From Sediminibacterium sp. (lineage in GTDB: Bacteria; Bacteroidota; Bacteroidia; Chitinophagales; Chitinophagaceae): DNA of 64,000 bases. Position numbers and translations under genes: made by a program. The notes under the pieces are model-generated. The model saw only the letters and a list, made by a program, of their open reading frames with translations. It had not been told where the DNA came from and ran no database searches. Below are positions 11,812 to 55,585 of the stretch, in pieces (positions within the stretch are counted from its first letter, which is position 1; each line of letters begins with the position of its first letter). Where the stretch lies: positions 1 through 64,000 of the forward strand of contig JAFWCB010000001.1 in the NCBI GenBank assembly GCA_017537025.1. The letters are read 5' to 3'.

Positions 11812-12999
11812 ATGAAAAAAATACTGCTAGTCATTGTAGTTTCTCAATTCTTTTGCACCACACTTTGGTTTGCAGGGAATACGGTAATCACTGAAATAGT
11901 AAGCGCAGGTTCATTAGAAGCTCATTTAATACCCCATATTACCAGTGCCATACAGTTCGGATTTATTACAGGAACATTTCTGTTTGCATTATTTACCATT
12001 GCCGACCGAATTGCACCATCTCTTGTTTTTTTTCTAAGTGCTTTGCTGGCAGGTATTTTTAATCTGGGCATTACCTGGGATCATATAAGCGTTCCTCAAA
12101 TAATATTATGTAGATTTTTAACAGGCTTTTTTCTTGCCGGCATCTACCCTGTTGGTATGAAAATAGCATCAGATCATTATCAAGCTACATTGGGTAAATC
12201 ACTTGGTTTTTTAGTAGGAGCACTCGTATTGGGAACGGCATTTCCTCATTTACTCAAGAACTATATAGCCGGCTTTCCTTGGAAATATGTTTTATACGGC
12301 ACTACGTTCTTATCCTTTCTGGGAGGGCTTTGTATGCTGGTTTTAGTGCCAATAGGCCCCTTCCGAAAACCGGCGCAAAAAATACAATTAACGGCTTTTC
12401 TGCATGGATTTCAACAACCTAATTTTAGGGCGGTTGCCTTTGGTTATTTCGGACATATGTGGGAACTTTATGCTTTCTGGACATTCATTCCATTTATGCT
12501 CAGGGCGTATAATAACCGATACCCGGGTATGTCTTTGAATATACCGTTGCTATCGTTCTCGATTATTGCTATTGGTAGCATTGCTTGTATGGTTAGCGGT
12601 GTATTATCACAATACACCAGTGTAAGAAAAATGGCCGGCTATGCACTTTTACTATCGGGATCTTGTTGTTTATTATCTCCTCTTTTCTTCTTCCTATCAT
12701 CCCCTTTTTTCTTTTTACTATTCCTTTTCATTTGGGGATTTTCCGTAATTGCAGACTCCCCTCTTTTTTCAGCTTTAGTGGCTCAACATACACCGGCCGA
12801 ATCACGCGGTACCTCATTAACTATTGTTAACTGTATTGGGTTTGCTATTACGATTGTAAGTATCCAATTGATAGGTTTATTACAAGAAATTTTTCAAACA
12901 CCCTATGTTTATATGTTATTGGCATTAGGGCCCGTTCTTGGCCTTTTTTCACTATATAACTATCAATCAATTAAAACAACTAAACACCTACAACTATGA
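11812..12999 (+). CDS. MFS transporter
   Basis: The product is 395 residues with about 12 membrane helices. The A-like loop between helices 2 and 3 reads ADRIAPSLVF, and helix 4 has LTGFFLAGIYPVGMKIASDHY. A middle cytoplasmic loop (FRKPAQKIQ) separates two six-helix halves, and ESRGTSLTIVN late in the second half is the mirror of a family motif. The substrate is not predictable. The stop codon overlaps the ATG of the next gene by four bases, so the two are likely translated in a coupled way. Confidence 0.85.
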   Translation: MKKILLVIVVSQFFCTTLWFAGNTVITEIVSAGSLEAHLIPHITSAIQFGFITGTFLFALFTIADRIAPSLVFFLSALLAGIFNLGITWDHISVPQIILCRFLTGFFLAGIYPVGMKIASDHYQATLGKSLGFLVGALVLGTAFPHLLKNYIAGFPWKYVLYGTTFLSFLGGLCMLVLVPIGPFRKPAQKIQLTAFLHGFQQPNFRAVAFGYFGHMWELYAFWTFIPFMLRAYNNRYPGMSLNIPLLSFSIIAIGSIACMVSGVLSQYTSVRKMAGYALLLSGSCCLLSPLFFFLSSPFFFLLFLFIWGFSVIADSPLFSALVAQHTPAESRGTSLTIVNCIGFAITIVSIQLIGLLQEIFQTPYVYMLLALGPVLGLFSLYNYQSIKTTKHLQL

Positions 13000-16461: not shown

Positions 16462-16980
16462 ATGTACCGATTATTTTATCTATTAGGGATATGTTTAGTA
16501 TCCATCACATCTATAGCACAAAAACCTGAAGAAAATTTAGCGAAGTTAGGTATCCAATTACCTGCTGTTTCCGCTCCTATTGCCAACTACGTAAATGTAG
16601 TGCGTACAGGTAATCTTTTATTCCTCGCAGGTAAAGGGCCTTTACAAAAAGACGGGACTTATATCACCGGAAAAATACCTGCCGATGTATCTATAGAGAA
16701 AGGGTATGAAGCAGCTAAATTAGTTGCAATCGCACATTTAGCAGTATTGAAAAAAGAATTAGGAGATTTAAGTAAAGTAAAACGCGTTGTAAAAGTATTA
16801 GGGATGGTAAATTCAGCAAGTGATTTTATAGATCAACCTAAAGTCATAAATGGCTATAGCGATTTAATGGTAGCTGTTTTTGGAGAGAAGGGTAAGCATG
16901 CGCGTAGTGCAGTTGGTATGTATGCATTGCCCATGAATATTGCCGTAGAGGTAGAAGTAATTGTAGAAGTAGAAAATTAA
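16462..16980 (+). CDS. Exported RidA-family protein
   Basis: The start is taken at ATG 16462; a TTG two codons earlier is in frame. The product is 172 residues: a signal peptide (MYRLFYLLGICLVSITSIAQ) ahead of a full RidA/YjgF domain. The family signatures GNLLFLAGKGP, a helix with AAKLVAIAHLAVLKKELGDL, and HARSAVGMYALPMNIAVEVE are all present; the Arg in HARSAVG matches the residue that binds the carboxylate of imine/enamine substrates in RidA. Typical RidA is cytosolic, about 130 residues and lacks a signal, so this is a periplasmic branch whose substrate is unknown. Confidence 0.85.
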   Translation: MYRLFYLLGICLVSITSIAQKPEENLAKLGIQLPAVSAPIANYVNVVRTGNLLFLAGKGPLQKDGTYITGKIPADVSIEKGYEAAKLVAIAHLAVLKKELGDLSKVKRVVKVLGMVNSASDFIDQPKVINGYSDLMVAVFGEKGKHARSAVGMYALPMNIAVEVEVIVEVEN

Positions 16981-18226: not shown

Positions 18227-19462
18227 ATGAAAAACAACAAAACCCTTATATGGCTTTGTTTTGTGGCATTTGGAGCAACCACCGGTTGTAAAAAAGATAA
18301 TGCTACTCCAACTGATGAAGCAAGCACTACCAATACAGTAATTGGTGGAGTAATCTCTGCCTTTAAAGATACCACAACCGTTACAGATGGGTCTGTTACC
18401 ATTAAGTTCAGCAGAACAGATGCCTGTTTCCCTTCCAATGAGATATTTGAATTCAGAGCCGTTTCTACAGGCTTTCCGGCAACAGCCAAATATGTTTGGG
18501 ATTTCGGCGATGGTAAATCTTTAACCGGTACTACTGTAAGAAATATTTACAAAGACCCTGGCACTTACACCGTTATTCTACAAGTGAAAGCAACCGATAA
18601 CTCCATATTGCAAAAAGTATCCATATCGGTAAAAGCATTAGGACAACAAGTATCGCCAACAGCTATTTTTTCCAGTTCTTTACCCGACATCAACTATCTG
18701 AATAACATGACCTTCACGAGTAGGTCTACCGTACCAACAGGCACTATTACTAATCATTTTTGGGATTGGGGAGATAGTACCACCAGCAGCACATCAAATA
18801 CATATATCCCTAAGAATTTTCCTCCGGTACCACAAGATAAAACCTACAATGTGAAATTAGTAGTAACGGCTAATTCAGGTTGTAAAGACACTGCTGCACT
18901 GAATGTTTTTGTACCGGCTGTTTACAATATCAGCGGCGATTTTAATGCAGACCAATACGATGGCTGTACGAATGAATATTTCATTTTCACTCCTACAACT
19001 ACAGGCGTTCCGGCAGGAGCCGTTTATACTTGGGATTTTGCTGATGCTACCGGATTGGTTTCGGGTAATCCGGTTCGAAAAGCGTTCACTTATCAAAATA
19101 CCTATGATGTAAAACTTACTATCACTTTAAAAGGTAAAATTATTTATCAAACACATAAAGCGGTTACTGCATTCGGACAAAACATAAAACCTAAGGCGCT
19201 GATGTTAAGAAATATTGTTAGCAGTACTGCAACCACCGAAAAATGGGCATTCTATAGCCAATCGAATATACCCCATGGTTATCTTATCGGATATAGATGG
19301 GAAATGCCTTTTGGCGTTGTGAATGATAACTTTAATACGATCGTTGAGCAAGAGTATACCAAAGCAGTTACTCCCACAAATTATTCGATACGATTAATAG
19401 TTACCGGTAATACCGGATGTAAAGACACCACGGTAGCAAACATTACCGTTGCTGCAAAATAA
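18227..19462 (+). CDS. PKD-domain surface lipoprotein, first of a tandem pair
   Basis: ATG 18227 gives 411 residues with a lipoprotein signal: the lipobox GATTGC makes Cys21 the lipidated residue, followed by KKD, a charged tail that in Bacteroidota often marks outer-surface export. Four PKD-like beta-sandwich repeats follow, each with a YVWDFGDG, FWDWGDS, YTWDFADA or YRWEMPFG core and ended by a GCKDT strand (two of the four). There is no T9SS C-terminal domain. It is likely an adhesin-like or structural surface protein. The next gene is a paralogue starting 4 bases after the stop. Confidence 0.85.
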   Translation: MKNNKTLIWLCFVAFGATTGCKKDNATPTDEASTTNTVIGGVISAFKDTTTVTDGSVTIKFSRTDACFPSNEIFEFRAVSTGFPATAKYVWDFGDGKSLTGTTVRNIYKDPGTYTVILQVKATDNSILQKVSISVKALGQQVSPTAIFSSSLPDINYLNNMTFTSRSTVPTGTITNHFWDWGDSTTSSTSNTYIPKNFPPVPQDKTYNVKLVVTANSGCKDTAALNVFVPAVYNISGDFNADQYDGCTNEYFIFTPTTTGVPAGAVYTWDFADATGLVSGNPVRKAFTYQNTYDVKLTITLKGKIIYQTHKAVTAFGQNIKPKALMLRNIVSSTATTEKWAFYSQSNIPHGYLIGYRWEMPFGVVNDNFNTIVEQEYTKAVTPTNYSIRLIVTGNTGCKDTTVANITVAAK

Positions 19463-19466
19463 AAAT

Positions 19467-20693
19467 ATGAGATTGAGCCTGCTACGATATGTATTGTGCA
19501 TTCCTTTCTTTCTTTTATGGGGATGTAAAAAAGACACGGTTTCTAATTTTGCAGCGTCTCTAAAATTAACCGGAGAAGGTACTGTTACCGTTTCAAAAGA
19601 TACTACCACAGTAAGTTTTGGAGATATTGTGGTACGCATTACTAATACCAGTACTTGTTTTCCGAGTTCAGAAATTTTTAGTTTTACTGCTGTTGGTCCG
19701 GCTTTACCTGCAGGCGCTTTTTATCAGTGGCAGTTTGGAGATGGCAACACAGCAAAAGGGAGTGGCGTTAGTTATTCTTATCAGGCAGCAGGATCTTTTT
19801 TAGTGAATTTATTTTTAATGCAAGATGAAAATACCATCATCTCAAAACTCAATTTCCCCATAAAAGTACTTGGCAAACAAACCAAGCCCGTAGTCAGATT
19901 CACAACTAAATTCGATTTTCCCGCTAACTTAAACTTCGTTACGTTCAATAGCACCTCCTCCGTTAATCAGGGCGATTTTGTGTCTTACTTATGGGAATGG
20001 GGCGATAGTACTAGTTCTTTATTATCAGTGCCGCTAACTCGACATGAATTTCCAAAATTCTTTACCGATAAAACCTACCCTGTTAAACTTACAGTAACTA
20101 CCAATAGTGGCTGCAAAGGCGATACTACTATTAACATAATAATACCGGGTACCTTTAATAATATCAAAGGAAACTTTACAGTTGCTGCGTTTGATGTATG
20201 TACCAACGAACGATTGGTATTCACAGCTGCAGCAGAAAATGTTCCCGGAGGATCTGTATATGAATGGGATTTCTCAGATGGTAAAGGTGTACAAACAGGG
20301 AACCCCATTCAGTATAAATATAAATACCCGAATGATTATGATGTAATCATGAGCGTGAAATTAAATGGCAGAGAAATTTATCGTACTAATAAATTAGTAA
20401 ATGCTAAAGGAGAAAATCCCAAACCAACTGCTTTATTCGAACCAACTTTAGTGTGGCAGAAAGCAACTGAGGTGAGATGGAGTTTTAATAGCAAAAGCAC
20501 TATTCCCACAAGTACCATAGATAGTTATCAATGGAATTTTGGTAACGGCTCATCTAATAACATTTTTCTTAGCTATATAGAAAACACTTACCAACGGCAA
20601 TCTACCGATCAAACTTATCGCGTGCAATTAATTGTAACAGGTAATGGATGTTCAGATACTACATTCAAGAATATTACAGTACCGAGATTATGA
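19467..20693 (+). CDS. PKD-domain surface lipoprotein, second of a tandem pair
   Basis: The product is 408 residues (ATG 19467; a TTG at 19449 is in frame but would overlap the previous gene). Its lipobox FLLWGC makes Cys20 the lipidated residue, again followed by KKD. The repeat order matches its neighbour: FYQWQFGDG, YLWEWGDS, YEWDFSDG, YQWNFGNG, with NSGCKGDTT and GNGCSDTT strands. The shared plan and close spacing point to a tandem duplication that has since diverged a great deal. The last base of its stop codon is the first base of a heptad array. Confidence 0.85.
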   Translation: MRLSLLRYVLCIPFFLLWGCKKDTVSNFAASLKLTGEGTVTVSKDTTTVSFGDIVVRITNTSTCFPSSEIFSFTAVGPALPAGAFYQWQFGDGNTAKGSGVSYSYQAAGSFLVNLFLMQDENTIISKLNFPIKVLGKQTKPVVRFTTKFDFPANLNFVTFNSTSSVNQGDFVSYLWEWGDSTSSLLSVPLTRHEFPKFFTDKTYPVKLTVTTNSGCKGDTTINIIIPGTFNNIKGNFTVAAFDVCTNERLVFTAAAENVPGGSVYEWDFSDGKGVQTGNPIQYKYKYPNDYDVIMSVKLNGREIYRTNKLVNAKGENPKPTALFEPTLVWQKATEVRWSFNSKSTIPTSTIDSYQWNFGNGSSNNIFLSYIENTYQRQSTDQTYRVQLIVTGNGCSDTTFKNITVPRL

Positions 20694-20748
20694 ATTATGA
20701 GTTATGAATTCTTAATTTTTAATTCATAATTCTAAATTCTTAATTCCC
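20693..20748. repeat. Heptad array 1 (8 x 7 nt, AATTNNN)
   Basis: Eight units of exactly seven bases follow without a break. Seven begin AATT (AATTATG, AATTCTT, AATTCAT and so on) and one AGTT. TTATGAATT (20703-20711) pairs with AATTCATAA (20721-20729), so the array can fold into a hairpin. It starts on the last base of the PKD stop codon and lies between convergent genes. Confidence 0.85.
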
Positions 20749-20751
20749 CTA

Positions 20752-22074
20752 TTACTCCCAAATCTCATCTTTCCCTTCTAACCAAAGCTTAACGGATTCT
20801 GTGGTAACTGATTTTGGGCGCTCAAGTGGGAAGCCTAAAGCACGATCCCAGCAGAGGCTGGCTAAAACACCCAACGCTCTACTTACAGCAAATAGTACAG
20901 TGTAGAATTCATATTCTACAAATCCGTAGTGTACCAATAGCGCACCGCTATGGGCATCTACATTCGGCCAAGGGTTTTTAATTTTCCCTAATGATTGTAA
21001 AATAGGAGGCACAGTATCGTAAATTTTCCAAACCGTATTAACTAATTTATCATCGGGCATATGCTTTCTTCCGAATTCCATTTGCGCCGTAAAACGCGGA
21101 TCCGTTTTACGCAATACGGCATGTCCGTAACCGGGTACTACTTTACCGGAAGAAATAGTTTTTTGAACATAATCAGCGATCTGCTCTTTAGAAGGATCGT
21201 CGGTACCGAGTTGCTCCTGCATTTCAAAAATCCACTTGATCACTTCTTGATTTGCTAATCCATGAAGTGGACCAGCAAGGCCATTCATACCTGCTGCATA
21301 ACTTAGGAAAGGGTCACTTAAGGCCGAACCCACCAAGTGTGTTGTATGCGCCGAAACATTCCCACCTTCATGATCGGCATGAATAGTCATATATAAACGC
21401 ATGAGTTCTTTGAAGCTTTCATCTTCATAACCCATCATATGGGCAAAATTTCCGGCCCAGTCTAATAAACCATTGGGCTGTATATGCTCATTGTTCTTGT
21501 ATTTTCTTCTGTAGATATAGGCAGCAATACGAGGTAGTCGGGCTATGAGATCCATAGCATCGTCGTATACCGGATTCCAGTAATCTTTTTTATTGATTCC
21601 TTTCGCGTATTCTTTTGCAAAGTTACTTTCCGTTTGTAATGCCATCACACCCACTACAAACATCGTCATAGGGTGCGTATTTAAAGGCAAGGCATCTATC
21701 GTTGCGAAAACATGATTGGGCACATGACTTCTGCGCTGCCAAACATTGGTAATATGATTAACTTCTTCTTCATTCGGAAGCTCACCTACAAGCATTAAAT
21801 GAAATAATCCTTCAGGCAGGGGCTCATCGCCACCGGGAGCTTTTGGCAATTTTTTTTGCAACTCGGGAATAGAAAATCCACGAAAACGAATCCCTTCTTG
21901 GGCATCTAATAAACTGGTTTCCGTAACTAAACCGGTAATTCCGCGCATACCCTGGTAAATCTGAGCAAGGGTTACCTCTCCTATTTTTTTGGTTCCATGC
22001 TCTTTGAGCAAATCTTTGATCTCTGCATTCGCAGCATCGGCTTTAGCTTTAAACCGGTCTTTAATAATTCCCAT
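20752..22074 (-). CDS. gltA: Citrate synthase, mitochondrial-like type
   Basis: The product is 440 residues. It condenses oxaloacetate and acetyl-CoA to citrate in the TCA cycle. The catalytic triad is complete: His271 in GPLHGLANQEV, His318 in PGYGHAVLRKTDPR and Asp373 in NVDAHSGALL. The sequence has the longer N-terminus and the GITGLVTETSLLDAQEGIRFRG block of the animal/fungal mitochondrial group rather than the NADH-sensitive E. coli type. It is a lone gene convergent with the PKD lipoproteins. The TACCTTTA box at 22101-22108 is its likely promoter. Confidence 0.95.
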   Translation of the reverse strand: MGIIKDRFKAKADAANAEIKDLLKEHGTKKIGEVTLAQIYQGMRGITGLVTETSLLDAQEGIRFRGFSIPELQKKLPKAPGGDEPLPEGLFHLMLVGELPNEEEVNHITNVWQRRSHVPNHVFATIDALPLNTHPMTMFVVGVMALQTESNFAKEYAKGINKKDYWNPVYDDAMDLIARLPRIAAYIYRRKYKNNEHIQPNGLLDWAGNFAHMMGYEDESFKELMRLYMTIHADHEGGNVSAHTTHLVGSALSDPFLSYAAGMNGLAGPLHGLANQEVIKWIFEMQEQLGTDDPSKEQIADYVQKTISSGKVVPGYGHAVLRKTDPRFTAQMEFGRKHMPDDKLVNTVWKIYDTVPPILQSLGKIKNPWPNVDAHSGALLVHYGFVEYEFYTVLFAVSRALGVLASLCWDRALGFPLERPKSVTTESVKLWLEGKDEIWE

Positions 22075-25764: not shown

Positions 25765-26390
25765 TTACACAGTATTTTAGTGATTTTACGGGTGCCCAAT
25801 GGCACCAGTTTTCCATGCTGGAAGAACTATACACAGAATGGAATAGTAAGATCAATGTAATATCCCGAAAAGATATCGATCAAATTTATTTGCATCATGT
25901 GCTTCACTCCCTGAGTATCGCAGCCATTGCCTCTTTTGAGCCCGGTACTAAAATTATTGATATTGGTTGTGGGGGTGGATTTCCGGGTGTACCATTAGCC
26001 ATTTTTTTTCCGGATGTAAAATTTCATCTGGTTGATAGTATCGGCAAAAAATTGAAAGTAGTAGAAGCCGTTTGTGAAGGTGCGGGTATCCGTAATATCA
26101 CCACCCAACATACCCGTGCAGAAGATATTAAAAACCGACAGTTCGATTTTGCTATTTCCCGTGCGGTAGCACCGCTCAAAGATTTACTAAAATGGAGTAT
26201 GCCTTTACTTAAAAAAGGTGTAACCGGTAAAGACGAAAATGCCATGCGAAACGGACTTATCTGCTTAAAAGGGGGCGACCTGGCACAAGAAATTTTTGAG
26301 AGTGGTGCACGCCCCAAAATGATGCAGATCAGCAATATCTTCCAACATCCTTATTTTGAAGAGAAATTTATACTTCATGTGGTGAAGTAA
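25734..26390 (+). CDS. rsmG: 16S rRNA (guanine-527-N7)-methyltransferase RsmG
   Basis: ATG 25734 gives 218 residues, the usual length; the frame opens 13 codons earlier inside the glycosyltransferase. The SAM-binding loop IIDIGCGGGFPGVPLA (about 74-89) and the ISRAVAPLKDLLKW block are diagnostic. It methylates G527 of 16S rRNA, and its loss gives low-level streptomycin resistance in other bacteria. The 31-base overlap with the gene before it suggests coupling. The last base of the stop codon starts heptad array 2. Confidence 0.95.
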   Translation: MESTPQKLELITQYFSDFTGAQWHQFSMLEELYTEWNSKINVISRKDIDQIYLHHVLHSLSIAAIASFEPGTKIIDIGCGGGFPGVPLAIFFPDVKFHLVDSIGKKLKVVEAVCEGAGIRNITTQHTRAEDIKNRQFDFAISRAVAPLKDLLKWSMPLLKKGVTGKDENAMRNGLICLKGGDLAQEIFESGARPKMMQISNIFQHPYFEEKFILHVVK

Positions 26391-26466
26391 ATCTGGAATC
26401 TGTAATCTTCAATCTGGAACCCGTATTAAAAATTTCAGATTGAAGATTGAAGATTTCAGATTGAAA
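26390..26466. repeat. Heptad array 2 (11 x 7 nt, inverted halves)
   Basis: Eleven seven-base units in strict register. The left half repeats AATCTGG, AATCTGT, AATCTTC; the right half repeats ATTGAAG, ATTTCAG, close to the reverse complement. The whole can fold into one long hairpin between the convergent rsmG and M1 peptidase genes, so it may also end transcription from both sides. Confidence 0.85.
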
Positions 26467-26469
26467 ATT

Positions 26470-29286: not shown

Positions 29287-30050
29287 GAATGCGTTTGTTT
29301 GAATGCCAAAGATAGCCCTACATAAGCAAAAAAACCTACGGGAACGGCCAACCAACCAAAAAATAACGCTGTTACAATACCGATACCTGCGATGATAAGA
29401 AAAGGTAATAATACTTTCAAGCTTACCGATTTGAATTTTAATGCCAGCATGGGTAAGGTACTAACCATCAAATAGCTGATCAATAGAATGATCCCAAACC
29501 AAAAGAATTTATTTTCCAATAAATCAATAATCCAAGCATCGGTAGCATACCAAAATACAAATGGAAAGGAAGCTATACATAACCCTGCGGCAGGTATGGG
29601 CACCCCTTTAAATCCATGTTGTTGCGTAGTGTCTATATTGAACCGGCCAAGTCTGTAAGCCCCGGCACAAGGAATGAGAAAGGATGGCAGCAGCAATAGA
29701 ATTGAAGTATCTAAACCTCCTGCATCCTGTGCATAACTCAATCTTAAAAATTGTAATACAATCATACCCGGTGCCACACCAAAACTTACCACATCGGCTA
29801 AAGAATCTAATTGCTTCCCCAATTCCGAAGAAGCCCCTAATGCCCTCGCCACAAATCCATCAAAAAAATCAACCACGGCTGCAGCTATAATAAACCAACC
29901 TGCAAACATAATTCGCTCCGGTAATACCACTAAGTTCTCGCCTTCAGCTGAAACCGTTAGTGTTAAGCCGGGTTGCAGAATATAAAGAATAGCCATACAA
30001 CCCAAAAAAAGATTGGCTAGGGTAAAAAGGTTAGGGATTTGTTTTATCAT
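29283..30050 (-). CDS. pssA: CDP-diacylglycerol--serine O-phosphatidyltransferase
   Basis: The product is 255 residues with about eight membrane helices. The CDP-alcohol phosphotransferase motif is present from about residue 63 as DFFDGFVARALGASSELGKQLDSLADVVSFG, matching D-G-x2-A-R-x8-G-x3-D-x3-D. It makes phosphatidylserine, the precursor of phosphatidylethanolamine. PNLFTLANLFLGCMAI at the N-terminus is typical of the PssA subclass. The last base of heptad array 3 lies right against its ATG, so the array forms its leader region. Confidence 0.95.
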   Translation of the reverse strand: MIKQIPNLFTLANLFLGCMAILYILQPGLTLTVSAEGENLVVLPERIMFAGWFIIAAAVVDFFDGFVARALGASSELGKQLDSLADVVSFGVAPGMIVLQFLRLSYAQDAGGLDTSILLLLPSFLIPCAGAYRLGRFNIDTTQQHGFKGVPIPAAGLCIASFPFVFWYATDAWIIDLLENKFFWFGIILLISYLMVSTLPMLALKFKSVSLKVLLPFLIIAGIGIVTALFFGWLAVPVGFFAYVGLSLAFKQTHS

Positions 30051-30162
30051 ATAAGGTAGAAGGTTTAAGGTGGAAGCAGTAAGGAAGAGGCTTTAAGGTG
30101 GAAGGAGTAAGATGTAAGGTCAGTTTGACCATACACCTCATACCTTATAGCTTATACCTTCA
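30051..30162. repeat. Heptad array 3 (16 x 7 nt, NNAAGGT / inverted ACCTNAT)
   Basis: Sixteen seven-base units in strict register fill the gap between pssA and the Pro-aminopeptidase gene. The left ten centre on AAGGT (ATAAGGT, TTAAGGT, GTAAGGT); the right units are the inverse (ACCTCAT, ACCTTAT). The last units cover the stop codon and final codons of the peptidase gene. Confidence 0.85.
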
Positions 30163-36206: not shown

Positions 36207-38246
36207 TTACGATATTTTTCCCCATCCAAATCTCGTTTTCTGCGATTGCAGAAATATTTTTAATCCTTCATGAGCAGGCTTCTCCAAATTTTCATCCTCA
36301 TGTACCAATTTCTCGGCAACCGCCCTCGCTTTCTCTAACATTCCCTTATCTGTAACAATGCTGGCTAGTTTGAAGTTCAATTCGCCACTTTGCCTCGTTC
36401 CTTCAATATCGCCCGGGCCCCGCATATCAAGATCTTTTTCCGCAATTTTAAATCCATCGTTCGTAGCACACATAATGGAGATACGTTCCCGGGCCTCTTT
36501 GCTGGCTTTACTACCCGTTAATAAAATGCAAAAACTTTTTTCCGAACCTCTTCCCACCCGTCCGCGAAGCTGATGCAACTGAGAAAGACCAAATTTTTCT
36601 GCACTTTCAATAACCATTACGGTAGCATTCGGCACATTTACCCCTACCTCAATTACCGTAGTGCTCACCATGATCTGCGTATCACCCTTCACAAAGCGTG
36701 CCATATTTGTATCTTTTTGATCTGCGGGCATTCTCCCATGAACCATACTTATTTTATACTTCGGTTCCGGGAAATAAGTCTTTACCTGCTCATAACCTTG
36801 CATCAGATCTTCATAACTTAACTTTTCACTCTCTTCGATCAAAGGATAAATAATATATGCTTGCCTACCCTTGGTAATCTCTTCTTTCACAAAATCCATG
36901 ACCTGCATCCGCTTCATTTCATTTCTTTGAACCGTTGTTATGGGTATTCGTCCGGGAGGTAATTCATCCATTACACTATACTCCAAATCGCCGTAAGCCG
37001 TCATAGCCAATGTACGCGGAATAGGTGTAGCCGTCATTACCAATACATGGGGCGGTATGGCTGCCTTCGTCCATAATTTGGCTCGCTGCGCTACGCCAAA
37101 ACGATGTTGCTCATCCACTATAACCAGTCCTAAATTTTTAAATTGAACCACTTCCTCTATTACCGCATGTGTGCCAATCACTAAATGAATGGTATCATCT
37201 AATAATCCTTGTAAAATCCTTTTTCGCTCGGCTGTTTTAGTACTACCGGTTAATAAAGCCACTTCTATGGGCATCTCTTTCAATAGGGCACTAATACCCT
37301 GAAAATGTTGCTGTGCCAATATCTCCGTAGGAGCCATCAAACAACTTTGGTACCCATTATCAGCCGCTAACAGCATACTTAATAAAGCAACAATGGTTTT
37401 ACCACTACCTACATCGCCTTGAAGCAAACGATTCATTTGATGCCCGCTTCCCGTATCCTGTCTTATTTCTTTCAGTACTCTTTTTTGTGCTCCGGTTAAA
37501 GCAAACGGTAAATGATGATTATAAAAATCGGTAAAGTAGTTTCCCACTTTTTCGAAAACCACCCCTTTACTAAAATGATTTCGTTGTACACGTACCAGTT
37601 GTAATCTTATTTGCGCAATAAAAAACTCTTCAAATTTTAATCGCTCTAACGCTTTTTTATAAATAGCTTCTGAGGTAGGAAAATGAATCGCACAATAGGC
37701 TTCATATCTTCCGATTAGTTTCAACTGTTGCCTTACCTGTTCGGGAATATTTTCCGGGATATCTGTTGGCTTTAAAGAACCTATCAATACCTGGGTGAGT
37801 TTCCCGATTTGCCTGCCATTTAATCCTCTTGCTTTTAATTTTTCGGTAGAAGGATATACCGGTTCTAAAAACGAAGCACCACCCGATTTTGCCGGTGTAT
37901 ACACTTCAATTTCGGGATGTACCATTTGAGGTTTCCCATTAAAAAATCCGGTTTTTCCAAATACCAAATATTCAGAACCGATATATAGATTTTTCTGTAT
38001 CCAATGGATACCTTGAAACCAAGTTAATTCCAAACTTCCTGTTTGATCTTTTATCTGTACAACCAATCTCTTTCCTCTCTTCTCTCCGATAATATCCATT
38101 TGCATAAGCTTGCCTTTAACTTGGATAAAATCAGTACCGGCATGGATATCGCTAATGGGTTGAACCTGTGTTTTATCGATATGACGGATTGGAAAATGAT
38201 GGAGCAAATCGTTGAAGGAAAAAATTTCCAACTCTTTCTTCAACAT
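36207..38246 (-). CDS. recG: ATP-dependent DNA helicase RecG
   Basis: The ATG-started frame is 679 residues. Order: wedge/OB domain (about 1-170), Walker A GDVGSGKT (277-284), VDEQHRFG box, and the HQLRGRVGRGSE and MRGPGDIEGTRQSGE motifs. RecG reverses stalled forks and processes Holliday junctions. The coding signal starts earlier: codons 38247-38300 in frame read LTSPIEYLKGVGPLRGD, and KGVGP is the usual RecG N-terminus. No ATG, GTG or TTG precedes it before the heptad DNA at 38348, so the true start is probably a rare codon (ATA at 38300 or ATC nearby), or there is a sequence error. Confidence 0.95.
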   Translation of the reverse strand: MLKKELEIFSFNDLLHHFPIRHIDKTQVQPISDIHAGTDFIQVKGKLMQMDIIGEKRGKRLVVQIKDQTGSLELTWFQGIHWIQKNLYIGSEYLVFGKTGFFNGKPQMVHPEIEVYTPAKSGGASFLEPVYPSTEKLKARGLNGRQIGKLTQVLIGSLKPTDIPENIPEQVRQQLKLIGRYEAYCAIHFPTSEAIYKKALERLKFEEFFIAQIRLQLVRVQRNHFSKGVVFEKVGNYFTDFYNHHLPFALTGAQKRVLKEIRQDTGSGHQMNRLLQGDVGSGKTIVALLSMLLAADNGYQSCLMAPTEILAQQHFQGISALLKEMPIEVALLTGSTKTAERKRILQGLLDDTIHLVIGTHAVIEEVVQFKNLGLVIVDEQHRFGVAQRAKLWTKAAIPPHVLVMTATPIPRTLAMTAYGDLEYSVMDELPPGRIPITTVQRNEMKRMQVMDFVKEEITKGRQAYIIYPLIEESEKLSYEDLMQGYEQVKTYFPEPKYKISMVHGRMPADQKDTNMARFVKGDTQIMVSTTVIEVGVNVPNATVMVIESAEKFGLSQLHQLRGRVGRGSEKSFCILLTGSKASKEARERISIMCATNDGFKIAEKDLDMRGPGDIEGTRQSGELNFKLASIVTDKGMLEKARAVAEKLVHEDENLEKPAHEGLKIFLQSQKTRFGWGKIS

Positions 38247-38347: not shown

Positions 38348-38375
38348 ATTGAAGATTCCAGATTGAAGATTTACT
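38348..38375. repeat. Heptad array 4 (4 x 7 nt, ATTNNNN)
   Basis: Four units (ATTGAAG, ATTCCAG, ATTGAAG, ATTTACT) in register, identical in wording to the right half of array 2. It sits between the divergent recG and trpS genes and runs into the trpS promoter box. Confidence 0.6.
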
Positions 38376-38387: not shown

Positions 38388-39398
38388 ATGGAAAAAGAGG
38401 TTGTAGTAAGCGGTATTCGTCCTACCGGATTTTTACATTTGGGAAATTATTTTGGTGCTATGCGTAATTATGTGCGTATGCAAAATGATTACCATTGCTA
38501 TTTCTTCGTAGCTAATTGGCATAGCCTTACCACGCACCCCGATACCAAAGAATTACGATCCAGTGTGTACCGCGTGATCGCTGAAAATATTGCCTGCGGT
38601 TTAGACCCCGAAAAAGTGGCTTTGTATGTACAAAGTGATATTCCTGAAATTGCTGAGTTATACCTCTATCTAAACATGCTTTCCTATAAAGGAGAGTTGG
38701 AAAAAACAACTACGTTTAAAGATAAAGTAAGATCACAGCCCGATAATGTAAATGCCGGACTCCTTACCTATCCCGTATTACAGGCGGCTGATATTATTAT
38801 TCAAAGAGCCGTAAAAGTACCTGTAGGAAAAGATCAGGAACAAAACTTGGAGATGGCTCGCAACTTTGCAGAGCGATTTAATTATAGATACGGCGATGTT
38901 TTCCCGATGCCTTATGCCTTTAATTACGGTAATGAGTTGATCAAAATAATGGGTTTAGATGGTAATGGTAAAATGAGTAAAAGCGAAAATCAGCTGTCCA
39001 CGCTGTATTTGGCAGATGACGATGAAACCATTCGCAAAAAAATCATGAAAGCCAAAACAGATCAAGGTCCCGAAACGCCTAACTCCACAAAGCCGGATTA
39101 TATCCAAAATCTTTTTACCCTGTTATCCTTGGTTAGTAAGGACGATGTTGTAGCTAAATTTGAGCAGGATTTTAATGCCAGCAGTGCCGGGAATACGATC
39201 ATCAGATACGGCGACCTCAAGAAGCAGTTAGCTGAAGATATGATTGGTTTTATACGCCCTATCCGCGAGAGAGCTGCTGAGATTCAAGCAGATACGCAAA
39301 CCATGCAGAAACTTATCAAAATGGGGGCGGAGAAAGCAAGAAGCAGGGCCAGCGAAACCTTACATATCGTTCGCCAATCTATGAACTTGAATTATTAA
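38388..39398 (+). CDS. trpS: Tryptophanyl-tRNA synthetase
   Basis: The product is 336 residues, a class I aminoacyl-tRNA synthetase. The HIGH-type motif reads HLGN at 17-20, in GIRPTGFLHLGNYFG, and KMSKS is at 195-199. AGLLTYPVLQAADI and GKDQEQNLEMARNFAERFN are the TrpRS substrate blocks. The length is normal. It is divergent from recG, with a -7 box five bases from the ATG and hence no room for a Shine-Dalgarno site. A deoxynucleoside kinase follows after 45 bases. Confidence 0.96.
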   Translation: MEKEVVVSGIRPTGFLHLGNYFGAMRNYVRMQNDYHCYFFVANWHSLTTHPDTKELRSSVYRVIAENIACGLDPEKVALYVQSDIPEIAELYLYLNMLSYKGELEKTTTFKDKVRSQPDNVNAGLLTYPVLQAADIIIQRAVKVPVGKDQEQNLEMARNFAERFNYRYGDVFPMPYAFNYGNELIKIMGLDGNGKMSKSENQLSTLYLADDDETIRKKIMKAKTDQGPETPNSTKPDYIQNLFTLLSLVSKDDVVAKFEQDFNASSAGNTIIRYGDLKKQLAEDMIGFIRPIRERAAEIQADTQTMQKLIKMGAEKARSRASETLHIVRQSMNLNY

Positions 39399-54769: not shown

Positions 54770-54794
54770 TCAGTCTTCGACAAGCTCAGACTGA
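54770..54794. repeat. CTGAGC-TGTCGAAG repeat, inverse copy
   Basis: TCAGTCT...AGACTGA stems flank a core whose minus strand reads GAGCTTGTCGAAG, the same motif as at 53089. It lies in the scoA-scoB gap. Confidence 0.65.
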
Positions 54795-54841
54795 CATTTA
54801 TTTTTCAGTTTGTATTGTAACCTTTAGCCCGTGTCACCCTG

Positions 54842-54868: not shown

Positions 54869-54896
54869 ATCGTCCATCGTCTATGGTCTAGCGTCT
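54869..54896. repeat. Heptad array 5 (4 x 7 nt) covering the scoA stop
   Basis: Four units (ATCGTCC, ATCGTCT, ATGGTCT, AGCGTCT) in register. On the minus strand the units read AGACGCT, AGACCAT and so on, and they encode the last residues of ScoA (DARP) and its stop codon. Confidence 0.7.
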
Positions 54897-55585
54897 AATG
54901 ACACTGTCTTTCTTTCAATCCGCTTCTCATAATTTTCCCCTTTAAAAATACGATGCACATACACACCCGATACATGTACATCATCAGGATCTATTTCACC
55001 GGGTTGCAATAACTCCTCCACTTCTGCAATGGTAATGTTGCCGGCTTTAGCCATGGAGGTAGAAAAATTTCTGGTTGTTTTTCTAAATACTAAATTACCC
55101 ATGGTATCTCCTTTCCAGGCTTTTACAATAGCAAAATCGGCGTGCAGTGCATGTTCCATCAAATACGTTTTATCATTGAATACACGTGTTTCTTTTCCTA
55201 CTGCTATTTCTGTTCCAACACCTGCAGGCGTGAAGAAAGCCGGAATACCCATACCCGCCATTTGAATACGCGTAGCTAATGTACCCTGAGGAACAAGGTC
55301 AACTACTAACTCGCCGCTTAGTAATTGGCGTTCAAATTCTGCATTCTCGCCCACATAACTGCTGATCATTTTTTTGATTTGCTTGGTTTTGAGCAAGAGA
55401 CCTAACCCAAAATCATCTACCCCAGCATTGTTTGAAATACAGGTAAGATTGGTAATGCCAGCTTGTACTAACGCTGCAATACTATTTTCGGGTATACCAT
55501 TCAAACCAAACCCACCTAGCATCAATGTAGCGCCACTGGGTATGTCGGCAATAGCTGCAGCTGCATTGGTAAATACTTTATTCAT
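54881..55585 (-). CDS. scoA: 3-oxoacid CoA-transferase subunit A
   Basis: The product is 234 residues. The GGFGLNGIPENSIAAL block and ISNNAGVDDFGLGLLL are the alpha-subunit signatures (CoA-binding loop GGFG). With ScoB it forms the heterodimeric CoA-transferase. The gene starts three bases after the DUF4296 stop, so it is probably transcribed from upstream. Its last four codons and stop lie in heptad array 5, while scoB lies 133 bases on; a normal scoAB pair is nearly contiguous, so repeats have been inserted between them. Confidence 0.93.
   Translation of the reverse strand: MNKVFTNAAAAIADIPSGATLMLGGFGLNGIPENSIAALVQAGITNLTCISNNAGVDDFGLGLLLKTKQIKKMISSYVGENAEFERQLLSGELVVDLVPQGTLATRIQMAGMGIPAFFTPAGVGTEIAVGKETRVFNDKTYLMEHALHADFAIVKAWKGDTMGNLVFRKTTRNFSTSMAKAGNITIAEVEELLQPGEIDPDDVHVSGVYVHRIFKGENYEKRIERKTVSLDARP

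Follow-up and report, generated by a model that had tools for sequence, protein, structure and literature searches.

Heptameric repeat arrays with opposed, polar arms in a Sediminibacterium genome and the replacement of their units in a sister genome

Results

The array between the PKD-domain and citrate synthase genes

The window, meaning the whole stretch of 64,000 nucleotides analyzed here, belongs to a Sediminibacterium genome of 3.19 Mb (29 contigs, 94.7% complete). Among named records, the closest to the citrate synthase of the window, including that of Sediminibacterium magnilacihabitans (Chitinophagaceae, Bacteroidota), show 91-92% identity to it. The citrate synthase gene (20752-22074, reverse strand; ORF and Pfam Citrate_synt) converges on a PKD-domain gene (19449-20693, forward strand; ORF, Pfam PKD_4 and comparison of the C-terminus), and a repeat array lies between them. 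As the original prediction had described, eight 7-base units follow one another between the convergent genes at 20693-20748, seven starting with AATT and the eighth with AGTT; sequence and TRF agree on this, the latter giving period 7 at 20687-20710 and 20707-20746. The single register conceals an inversion. The left arm (20687-20710, forward strand; sequence, TRF and congener comparison) reads ATTATGA, ATTATGA, GTTATGA, ATT, and the right arm (20711-20746, reverse strand; sequence, TRF and fold) is made of reverse-complement units, CTTAATT, TTTAATT, CATAATT, CTAAATT and CTTAATT, with a last C. One register runs across both opposed arms because AATT is palindromic, and the entire stretch of 20687-20746 is predicted to fold into a hairpin.

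The array had been thought to start on the last base of the PKD-gene stop codon. This TGA (20691-20693) does lie inside the array, within its first unit, yet the periodicity begins earlier, at 20687. The protein ends in VPRL-stop here and in IPAQ-stop in the congeners G021 and L081, where the spacer measures 2 and 5 nt as compared to 58 nt; the array is thus an insertion that also provides the stop codon of the PKD gene, whose last codons lie within it. No Rfam family reached the gathering threshold anywhere in the window.

Related arrays in the window

Four further arrays, at 26390, 30051, 38348 and 54869, had been grouped with this one as a family of fixed period and array-specific units, and TRF and the sequence bear the grouping out. 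Those at 26390 and 30051 each also have an opposed arm. The former, between rsmG-type and M1-peptidase genes, combines an AATCTNN left arm (26390-26419, forward strand; TRF, fold, Pfam, and comparison with congeners and the sister genome G046) with a right arm of AGATTGA units (26437-26469, reverse strand; TRF, fold, G046 comparison). The latter has an AAGGTNN-type left arm (30050-30119, forward strand; TRF, fold, G046 comparison) and a right arm of ACCTTAT units (30135-30160, reverse strand; TRF, G046 comparison). A short single-arm AGATT-type array (38348-38371, reverse strand; TRF and sequence) lies upstream of an ORF at 38388, and four AGACGAT-type units (54869-54896, reverse strand) form the C-terminus (LDARP) and stop of ORF 54881-55585; this last array is absent from the TRF list of the window and was recognized by reading the sequence.

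The window also contains other features. A second repeat of this genome, CTTCGACAAGCTCAG-like and not heptameric, is found both in spacers and within ORFs, where it is translated as LRQAQGD (ORFs L054:4588-5631 and L064:11175-12407; window 54780-54800). A 24-nt pyrimidine-rich tandem repeat of about two copies (12671-12721) lies inside ORF 11812-12999, and a recG-type helicase gene occupies 36207-38246; RecG works at stalled forks.

Excess of period 7 and its spread among genomes

The sample of the same genome comprised 864 kb in 41 stretches, the window included, with 416 spacers (59 kb) and 801 kb of ORFs. Genes were taken as the longest ORFs of at least 80 aa; their starts are rough and some ORFs are possibly wrong. 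Lag-7 runs at score 12 numbered 37 in the spacers, as compared to 0 in dinucleotide shuffles and 14 in the ORFs, so that the excess over shuffled spacers, the check named in the original prediction, is confirmed. Lags 4-6 and 8-13 yielded 0 to 4 spacer runs, lags 14 and 21 were high, and a run at lag 7, 14 or 21 was present in 37 of the 416 spacers. In the window alone, lag-7 matching reached 0.307 in spacers, the top value after lag 1, versus 0.260 in ORFs.

Per 100 kb, lag-7 runs came to 5.3 in this genome, 0.6 in both G017 and G011, 1.0 in G021 and 2.2 in G010; 18 kb of G003 held no such run, and the rate in G023, some stretches of which had been picked for their arrays, was 16.5. The exact pattern AATTNNN x4 was present in 31 of the 101 genomes of the genus, with forward copies ranging from 0 to 328, and a backwards AATT control gave 0 to 30 copies across the same 101. 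Pattern and control stood at 36 and 1 in the present genome, 56 and 22 in G058, and 25 and 30 in G097, where the control is the higher. By eye, the array load in this genus survey may track genome size, in that genomes of about 2 Mb mostly lack AATTNNN x4 and many of at least 3.5 Mb hold several to hundreds.

The 778 spacers at 80 citrate synthase loci of relatives held 41 lag-7 and 15 lag-8 runs, compared to 0 and 0 in pooled shuffles (a maximum of 2 for lag 8 in one subset), and there are octamer forms as well. Arrays were found in the named isolates Terrimonas ferruginea DSM 30193 (L143), Niastella populi (L158), Cnuella takakiae (L129) and Pinibacter soli (L138), which makes an assembly artefact of binned genomes unlikely. 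Such arrays are numerous, with several vocabularies of units, and cultured Chitinophagaceae have them too. Octamer hairpins of the ATCGTCAG-, AAGTCCGN- and CTTTGCGN-types adjoin heptamer ones (L046:10830, L047:16710, L050:4890, L048:17053). Long nested hairpins of the CCCCCT...AGGGGG type also fill spacers of relatives (rsmG-M1 in L129; L069:6375 in G023); these look MITE-like and seem to be a separate element.

Placement of the arrays

Arrays were present in 53 of the 513 spacers of 30-600 nt in 1.247 Mb. The bias to gene ends that had been anticipated is seen in their distribution by neighbour orientation, with arrays in 13 of 56 convergent, 36 of 345 codirectional and 4 of 112 divergent spacers of this length. 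Opposed stems of score at least 12 marked a fraction of 0.42 of the 26 array-bearing spacers of 60-120 nt as compared to 0.08 of the others, and 0.57 of the 14 of 120-250 nt as compared to 0.11; none was found in the 11 array spacers of 30-60 nt. Matching within hairpin arms was 0.46 at lag 7, 0.37 at lag 8 and 0.53 at lag 14, versus about 0.25-0.29 at the remaining lags from 3 to 13.

In-frame arrays also occur inside ORFs. In the three genes aligned with congeners, LigA, MutL and one of PDH type, they are situated at loops or linkers whose length varies among congeners. The array segment of GltX has the same length as that of its relatives, and may represent a replacement rather than an insertion.

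Composition and drift of the units

The arrays are not plain microsatellites, in agreement with the earlier description. The fixed core of 3-5 bases ascribed to each array is real, but weaker than it appears: in 44 arrays of at least 42 nt the sorted conservation per unit position was 0.99, 0.99, 0.96, 0.93, 0.86, 0.72 and 0.56, compared to 0.98, 0.96, 0.92, 0.87, 0.83, 0.77 and 0.68 if the departures were evenly spread. Unit likeness in these 44 arrays, identical arrays having been removed, was 0.826 at one step, 0.833 at two and 0.754 at five, against about 0.787 in shuffled arrays; the selection of runs by lag 7 inflates their lag-7 value. The array beside citrate synthase in G046 drifts by one change per step, from AGACGAT through AGACTAT, AGACAAT and AGTCAAT to GGTCAAT. 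The likeness of neighbouring units and this stepwise drift look like the outcome of reiterative, error-prone copying. The vocabularies cluster, in that 303 of the 2775 pairs of arrays differ by at most one change as compared to 117 expected, and arms of differing vocabularies can share one spacer (L042, L064:706).

Polarity and order of the arms

The figures for pair polarity, stems, arm order, pointing away, G.U and A.C mismatches and array-free composition pool the genomes, including duplicates under two ids, with a spacer length ceiling of 600 to 2500 nt depending on the analysis. Among complementary array pairs (those below 0.7 complementarity left out), the G-rich unit occupies the left (5') arm in 42 of 45 and the right arm in three, of which two are of AATCT type and one is a poly-T stretch; in the listed stems of the AATCT type, AATCT is on the left. 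The polarity is kept for convergent, codirectional and divergent neighbours, and since all 10 divergent pairs obey the rule it is not bound to the direction of transcription. In stems of score at least 12, the ratio of G-left to C-left was 62:12 for periodic, 22:15 for middling and 40:51 for non-periodic stems. The CTTTGCGN-type octamer hairpin has a C-rich left arm, contrary to the rule.

Arrays that lie nearer to one gene end follow a corresponding rule. With arrays left out when the two gene-end distances differ by less than 10 nt, the G-rich strand, read 5' to 3', points away from the nearer end in 118 of the 135 scored, including 62 of 63 within 10 nt of a stop and 18 of 19 within 10 nt of a start; for single arrays the count is 61 of 71. 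In array-free spacers the share of this orientation is 46% at stops, which rejects a composition bias near gene ends as the cause there, and 63-72% at starts, where such a bias is possibly part of it. Ascertainment through stop codons is also unlikely, as AATT units include stops whichever strand is read, the orientation of AATCT units is maintained with no stop required, and the sense strand is the G-rich one in all three internal arrays less than 100 nt from the ORF stop among the ORFs examined.

The two arms have a common vocabulary and an unmatched order of units. The best-register match averaged 17.7 versus 17.1 for shuffled units over 35 pairs (those below 0.68 identity left out; Wilcoxon p = 0.24), no pair reached p <= 0.05, and two of the 35 looked matched (L117:7195, L115:7810). 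This argues against fold-back copying as the rule, and an origin of the arms as template-switch copies is likewise unsupported as a general rule, their order being no better than that of shuffled units. On the sense strand of codirectional spacers, periodic stems contained 29 G.U and 31 A.C mismatches, a total of about 60 that would still accommodate a weak preference, compared to 37 and 26 in other stems. Together with the unmatched order, the lack of a G.U excess argues against selection on RNA pairing. Period 7 was also present in a Trichormus plasmid, of which 350 of 366 kb were covered, but the polarity stood at 5 versus 4 there, one pair agreeing. A constructed AATT array had no BLAST match among plasmids, an outcome that carries little weight since low-complexity sequence is filtered in that search.

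Shared sites and changed vocabularies in a sister genome

The citrate synthase protein of G046 is 99% identical to that of the present genome, and the DNA is 85-89% identical over the compared stretches. The comparison covered 11 array sites, of which six (L042:10916, L045:3595, L050:2889, L053:7387, L075:3644 and L166:2916) had been preselected for an AATT or AATCT array match in G046, though not for presence in the genome studied, and five had not (20693, 26390 and 30051 in the window, L164:16739 and L178:541); a weak G046 match (L289/L056, 68% over 418 nt) was excluded as an ortholog. With this preselection of six, an array was found in G046 at 10 of the 11 sites; at L178 it has a short stretch that resembles a fusion of the ends of both arms. 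The two genomes have unrelated vocabularies at four sites (20693, L042, L045 and L053), related yet different ones at 30051, and the same one at five. At 26390 the genomes differ by gains of 7-nt units. At L164 the array is identical and the stretch 16739-16811, compared with L301, is 98% identical, most compared flanks being at 83-89%; this stretch may reflect recent exchange or be a conserved one.

In G046 stretches unselected for arrays, 47 spacers divided into 3 with arrays in both genomes, 1 in the present genome only, 0 in G046 only and 43 in neither. Plain spacers had a median identity of 0.91 (33 spacers) between the genomes, as compared to 0.34, 0.34, 0.49, 0.60, 0.75 and 1.00 in the six array spacers scored (Mann-Whitney p = 0.03); L166 and L075 fall below the array threshold in one of the two genomes in this scoring, although the sequence is legible as an array in each.

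Conservation among relatives of the association with given gene ends had also been proposed. It does not extend beyond G046: arrays are missing at nearly all compared congener sites, the exceptions being 26390 (L090, L091) and L069:17549 (G023, with other units). The 26390 site holds ordinary hairpins in G011, G017, G021, L079 and L081 and a plain 18-nt spacer in L080; in L090 and L091 the arms occupy the outer ends of a spacer, with ordinary hairpins in between.

Discussion

Relation to known repeats

A 2007 survey, cited in PMC4679880, ranked heptamers as the most abundant class among long simple repeats for most of its genomes, and their over-representation among long bacterial repeats is reported with no accepted cause (PMC4679880, PMC4692102). 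The supposition that they lack a formal description in Bacteroidota is contradicted by print, as TAACTGA direct repeats are described from Beggiatoaceae, cyanobacteria and five Bacteroidetes (PMC4679880). These resemble the present arrays as intergenic heptamers, yet they have one exact unit and, in the genome chiefly examined there, are mostly direct and lie just 5' of start codons (PMC4679880). The GGGAATC/GGGANTN heptamers of Xanthomonas and Nostoc are likewise degenerate, intergenic and partly inverted, but they consist of one G-rich, G-quadruplex-type unit, and the consulted portions of that paper describe no vocabulary switching (PMC4692102). The nearest parallel is the P6b stem of the Nostoc trnL intron, in which degenerate 7-nt units of Class I (TDNGATT) or Class II (NNTGAGT) form both hairpin arms and one class repeatedly replaces the other at one site (PMC4476775). 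Class I resembles the AATCTNN type, and replacement at a fixed site in the manner of P6b was seen at 4 of the 10 sites shared with G046. P6b is, however, a single group I intron site, whereas the present arrays occupy many spacers and some genes, with more vocabularies and a polarity rule. Heptamer repeats are thus already known, and it is the polarity and the switching that set the present ones apart; no description of either polarity or genome-wide switching of heptamers in Bacteroidota was found in the open-access literature searched.

A likeness to the STRR sequences of heterocystous cyanobacteria had also been suggested. STRR are tandem 7-nt units of fixed consensus, which are not known to have opposed polar arms. 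The likeness stands for the tandem 7-nt spacer units, but not for the consensus or the host, the present arrays having several degenerate vocabularies and residing in Chitinophagaceae. In its polarity an array may be likened to chromosome ends, or to two fused ends: at telomeres and head-to-head telomere fusions the G-rich strand runs 5' to 3' towards the junction from either side, having been made by telomerase at linear ends. The G-rich polarity is alike, yet the present genome has no reverse transcriptase match.

A possible origin in DNA synthesis

Among the functions first considered for the arrays, a product of some DNA synthesis process is the one favoured here, over termination. At a little short of an even chance, we suggest that an array is the product of recurrent, error-prone DNA synthesis and not a dedicated regulatory element. 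The spacer at a persistent intergenic site would be lost up to the gene tips following a break or stall, and new strands would then extend 5' to 3' towards the interior, from one flank or from both, by copying reiteratively in steps of 7 nt, or sometimes 8. The G-rich strand would be the new one, and the ends would be joined afterwards, leaving U units on one side of a loop and their reverse complements on the other. The hairpin-forming product may itself be fragile, in which case the site would be kept and its vocabulary replaced.

Growth from the flanks, with the G-rich strand as the new one and the last one or two units as template, would account for the polarity, the unmatched arm order and the drift, and loss of the spacer with re-synthesis for the switching, the array-made stops and the arrays abutting genes. 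The insertions relative to congeners (at the citrate synthase spacer and similarly elsewhere), the specificity of the period, the likeness of neighbouring units, the replacement of spacers between sisters and the in-frame arrays of the LigA, MutL and PDH type likewise count for synthesis of this kind. A vocabulary common to both arms and many sites makes self-templating alone insufficient, and copying from other arrays is possible. A single break is also insufficient as an explanation, given the single arrays that point away from the nearer end and the layout in L090 and L091; the latter suggests that a stalled end, and not a break, may be where growth starts, and a fork stalled at a hairpin would explain both observations. 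Counting against the synthesis are the two matched-looking arm pairs and the Trichormus plasmid, as does the sharing of sites between sisters, which is also compatible with selection for structure there.

Selection for structure is the substance of the strongest rival, according to which the arrays are selected RNA hairpins, either bidirectional terminators or protectors of mRNA 3' ends, with slippage as raw material only. We consider this unlikely, although the convergent bias and divergent deficit, the sites kept between the sisters and the enrichment of opposed stems in array spacers of 60-250 nt all agree with it, and at 26390 the array occupies the position of ordinary hairpins in five relatives. 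Termination or mRNA stability, as entertained originally, is unsupported by the G.U test and the arm order: periodic stems lack the preservation of G.U over A.C expected of intrinsic terminators at the RNA level, within the limits of about 60 mismatches. The polarity is moreover unchanged in divergent spacers, single and ORF-internal arrays exist, and the shortest array spacers (30-60 nt) lack such a stem.

Somewhat less probable is a mobile palindromic element, REP-, MITE- or RPE-like, whose arm pair would move as a unit and later drift by slippage. One vocabulary does recur at many sites per genome, and the insertions are missing in congeners. Rickettsia palindromic elements are tolerated as in-frame insertions within genes, as are the arrays in the three aligned genes (the GltX segment being of equal length), yet the present arrays are built of 7-nt units and have no common element consensus, nor the common palindrome consensus of REP elements. 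Such mobility also sits poorly with several vocabularies per genome, two of them in one spacer, and with replacement at the same site in the sister. Mobilization by TnpA_REP is possible but unsupported. The Y1 transposase was found in 2 of 7 congeners, with one strong match in the present genome and none in the array-bearing G023 (70% complete).

Ordinary slippage during replication, acting on 7-nt seeds that arose by chance, has been proposed for heptameric simple repeats; as an account of the present arrays it is improbable and already strained. The abundance of heptamers among long repeats (PMC4679880), the unit gains at 26390 and the decay of likeness along arrays are all in its favour, but it fails to yield opposed arms of fixed polarity, clustered vocabularies or the switching of whole spacers. 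Least probable by far is the addition of repeats by a telomerase-like reverse transcriptase or Ku-dependent end joining, for in spite of the telomere-like polarity and of AATT-pattern matches in all four Ku-positive genomes among the 101, RVT_1 was found in 10 of these 101 and neither in the present genome nor in the five richest in AATT matches (G098, G089, G065, G013 and G078; the sixth, G058, has one), and no Ku match was found in the present genome, G089, G065 or G013, several of these genomes being incomplete.

Conclusions

The favoured origin in DNA synthesis lends itself to a bolder and rather doubtful version, a bacterial counterpart of telomere healing free of reverse transcriptase. 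Broken or stalled chromosome ends would each be extended at the 3' end with G-rich 7-nt repeats, through a putative polymerase activity with a heritable, drifting vocabulary, and would then be rejoined, the sites staying fragile. The polarity, the unmatched arm order and the switching at the same site are sharp constraints that count against several simple accounts and can be tested in cultured Chitinophagaceae. If growth at 3' ends holds, a DNA repair or replication activity would be writing new sequence at gene ends and within genes; if the counterpart of telomere healing is true, these genomes would hold a lineage-specific, self-rewriting record of past breaks.
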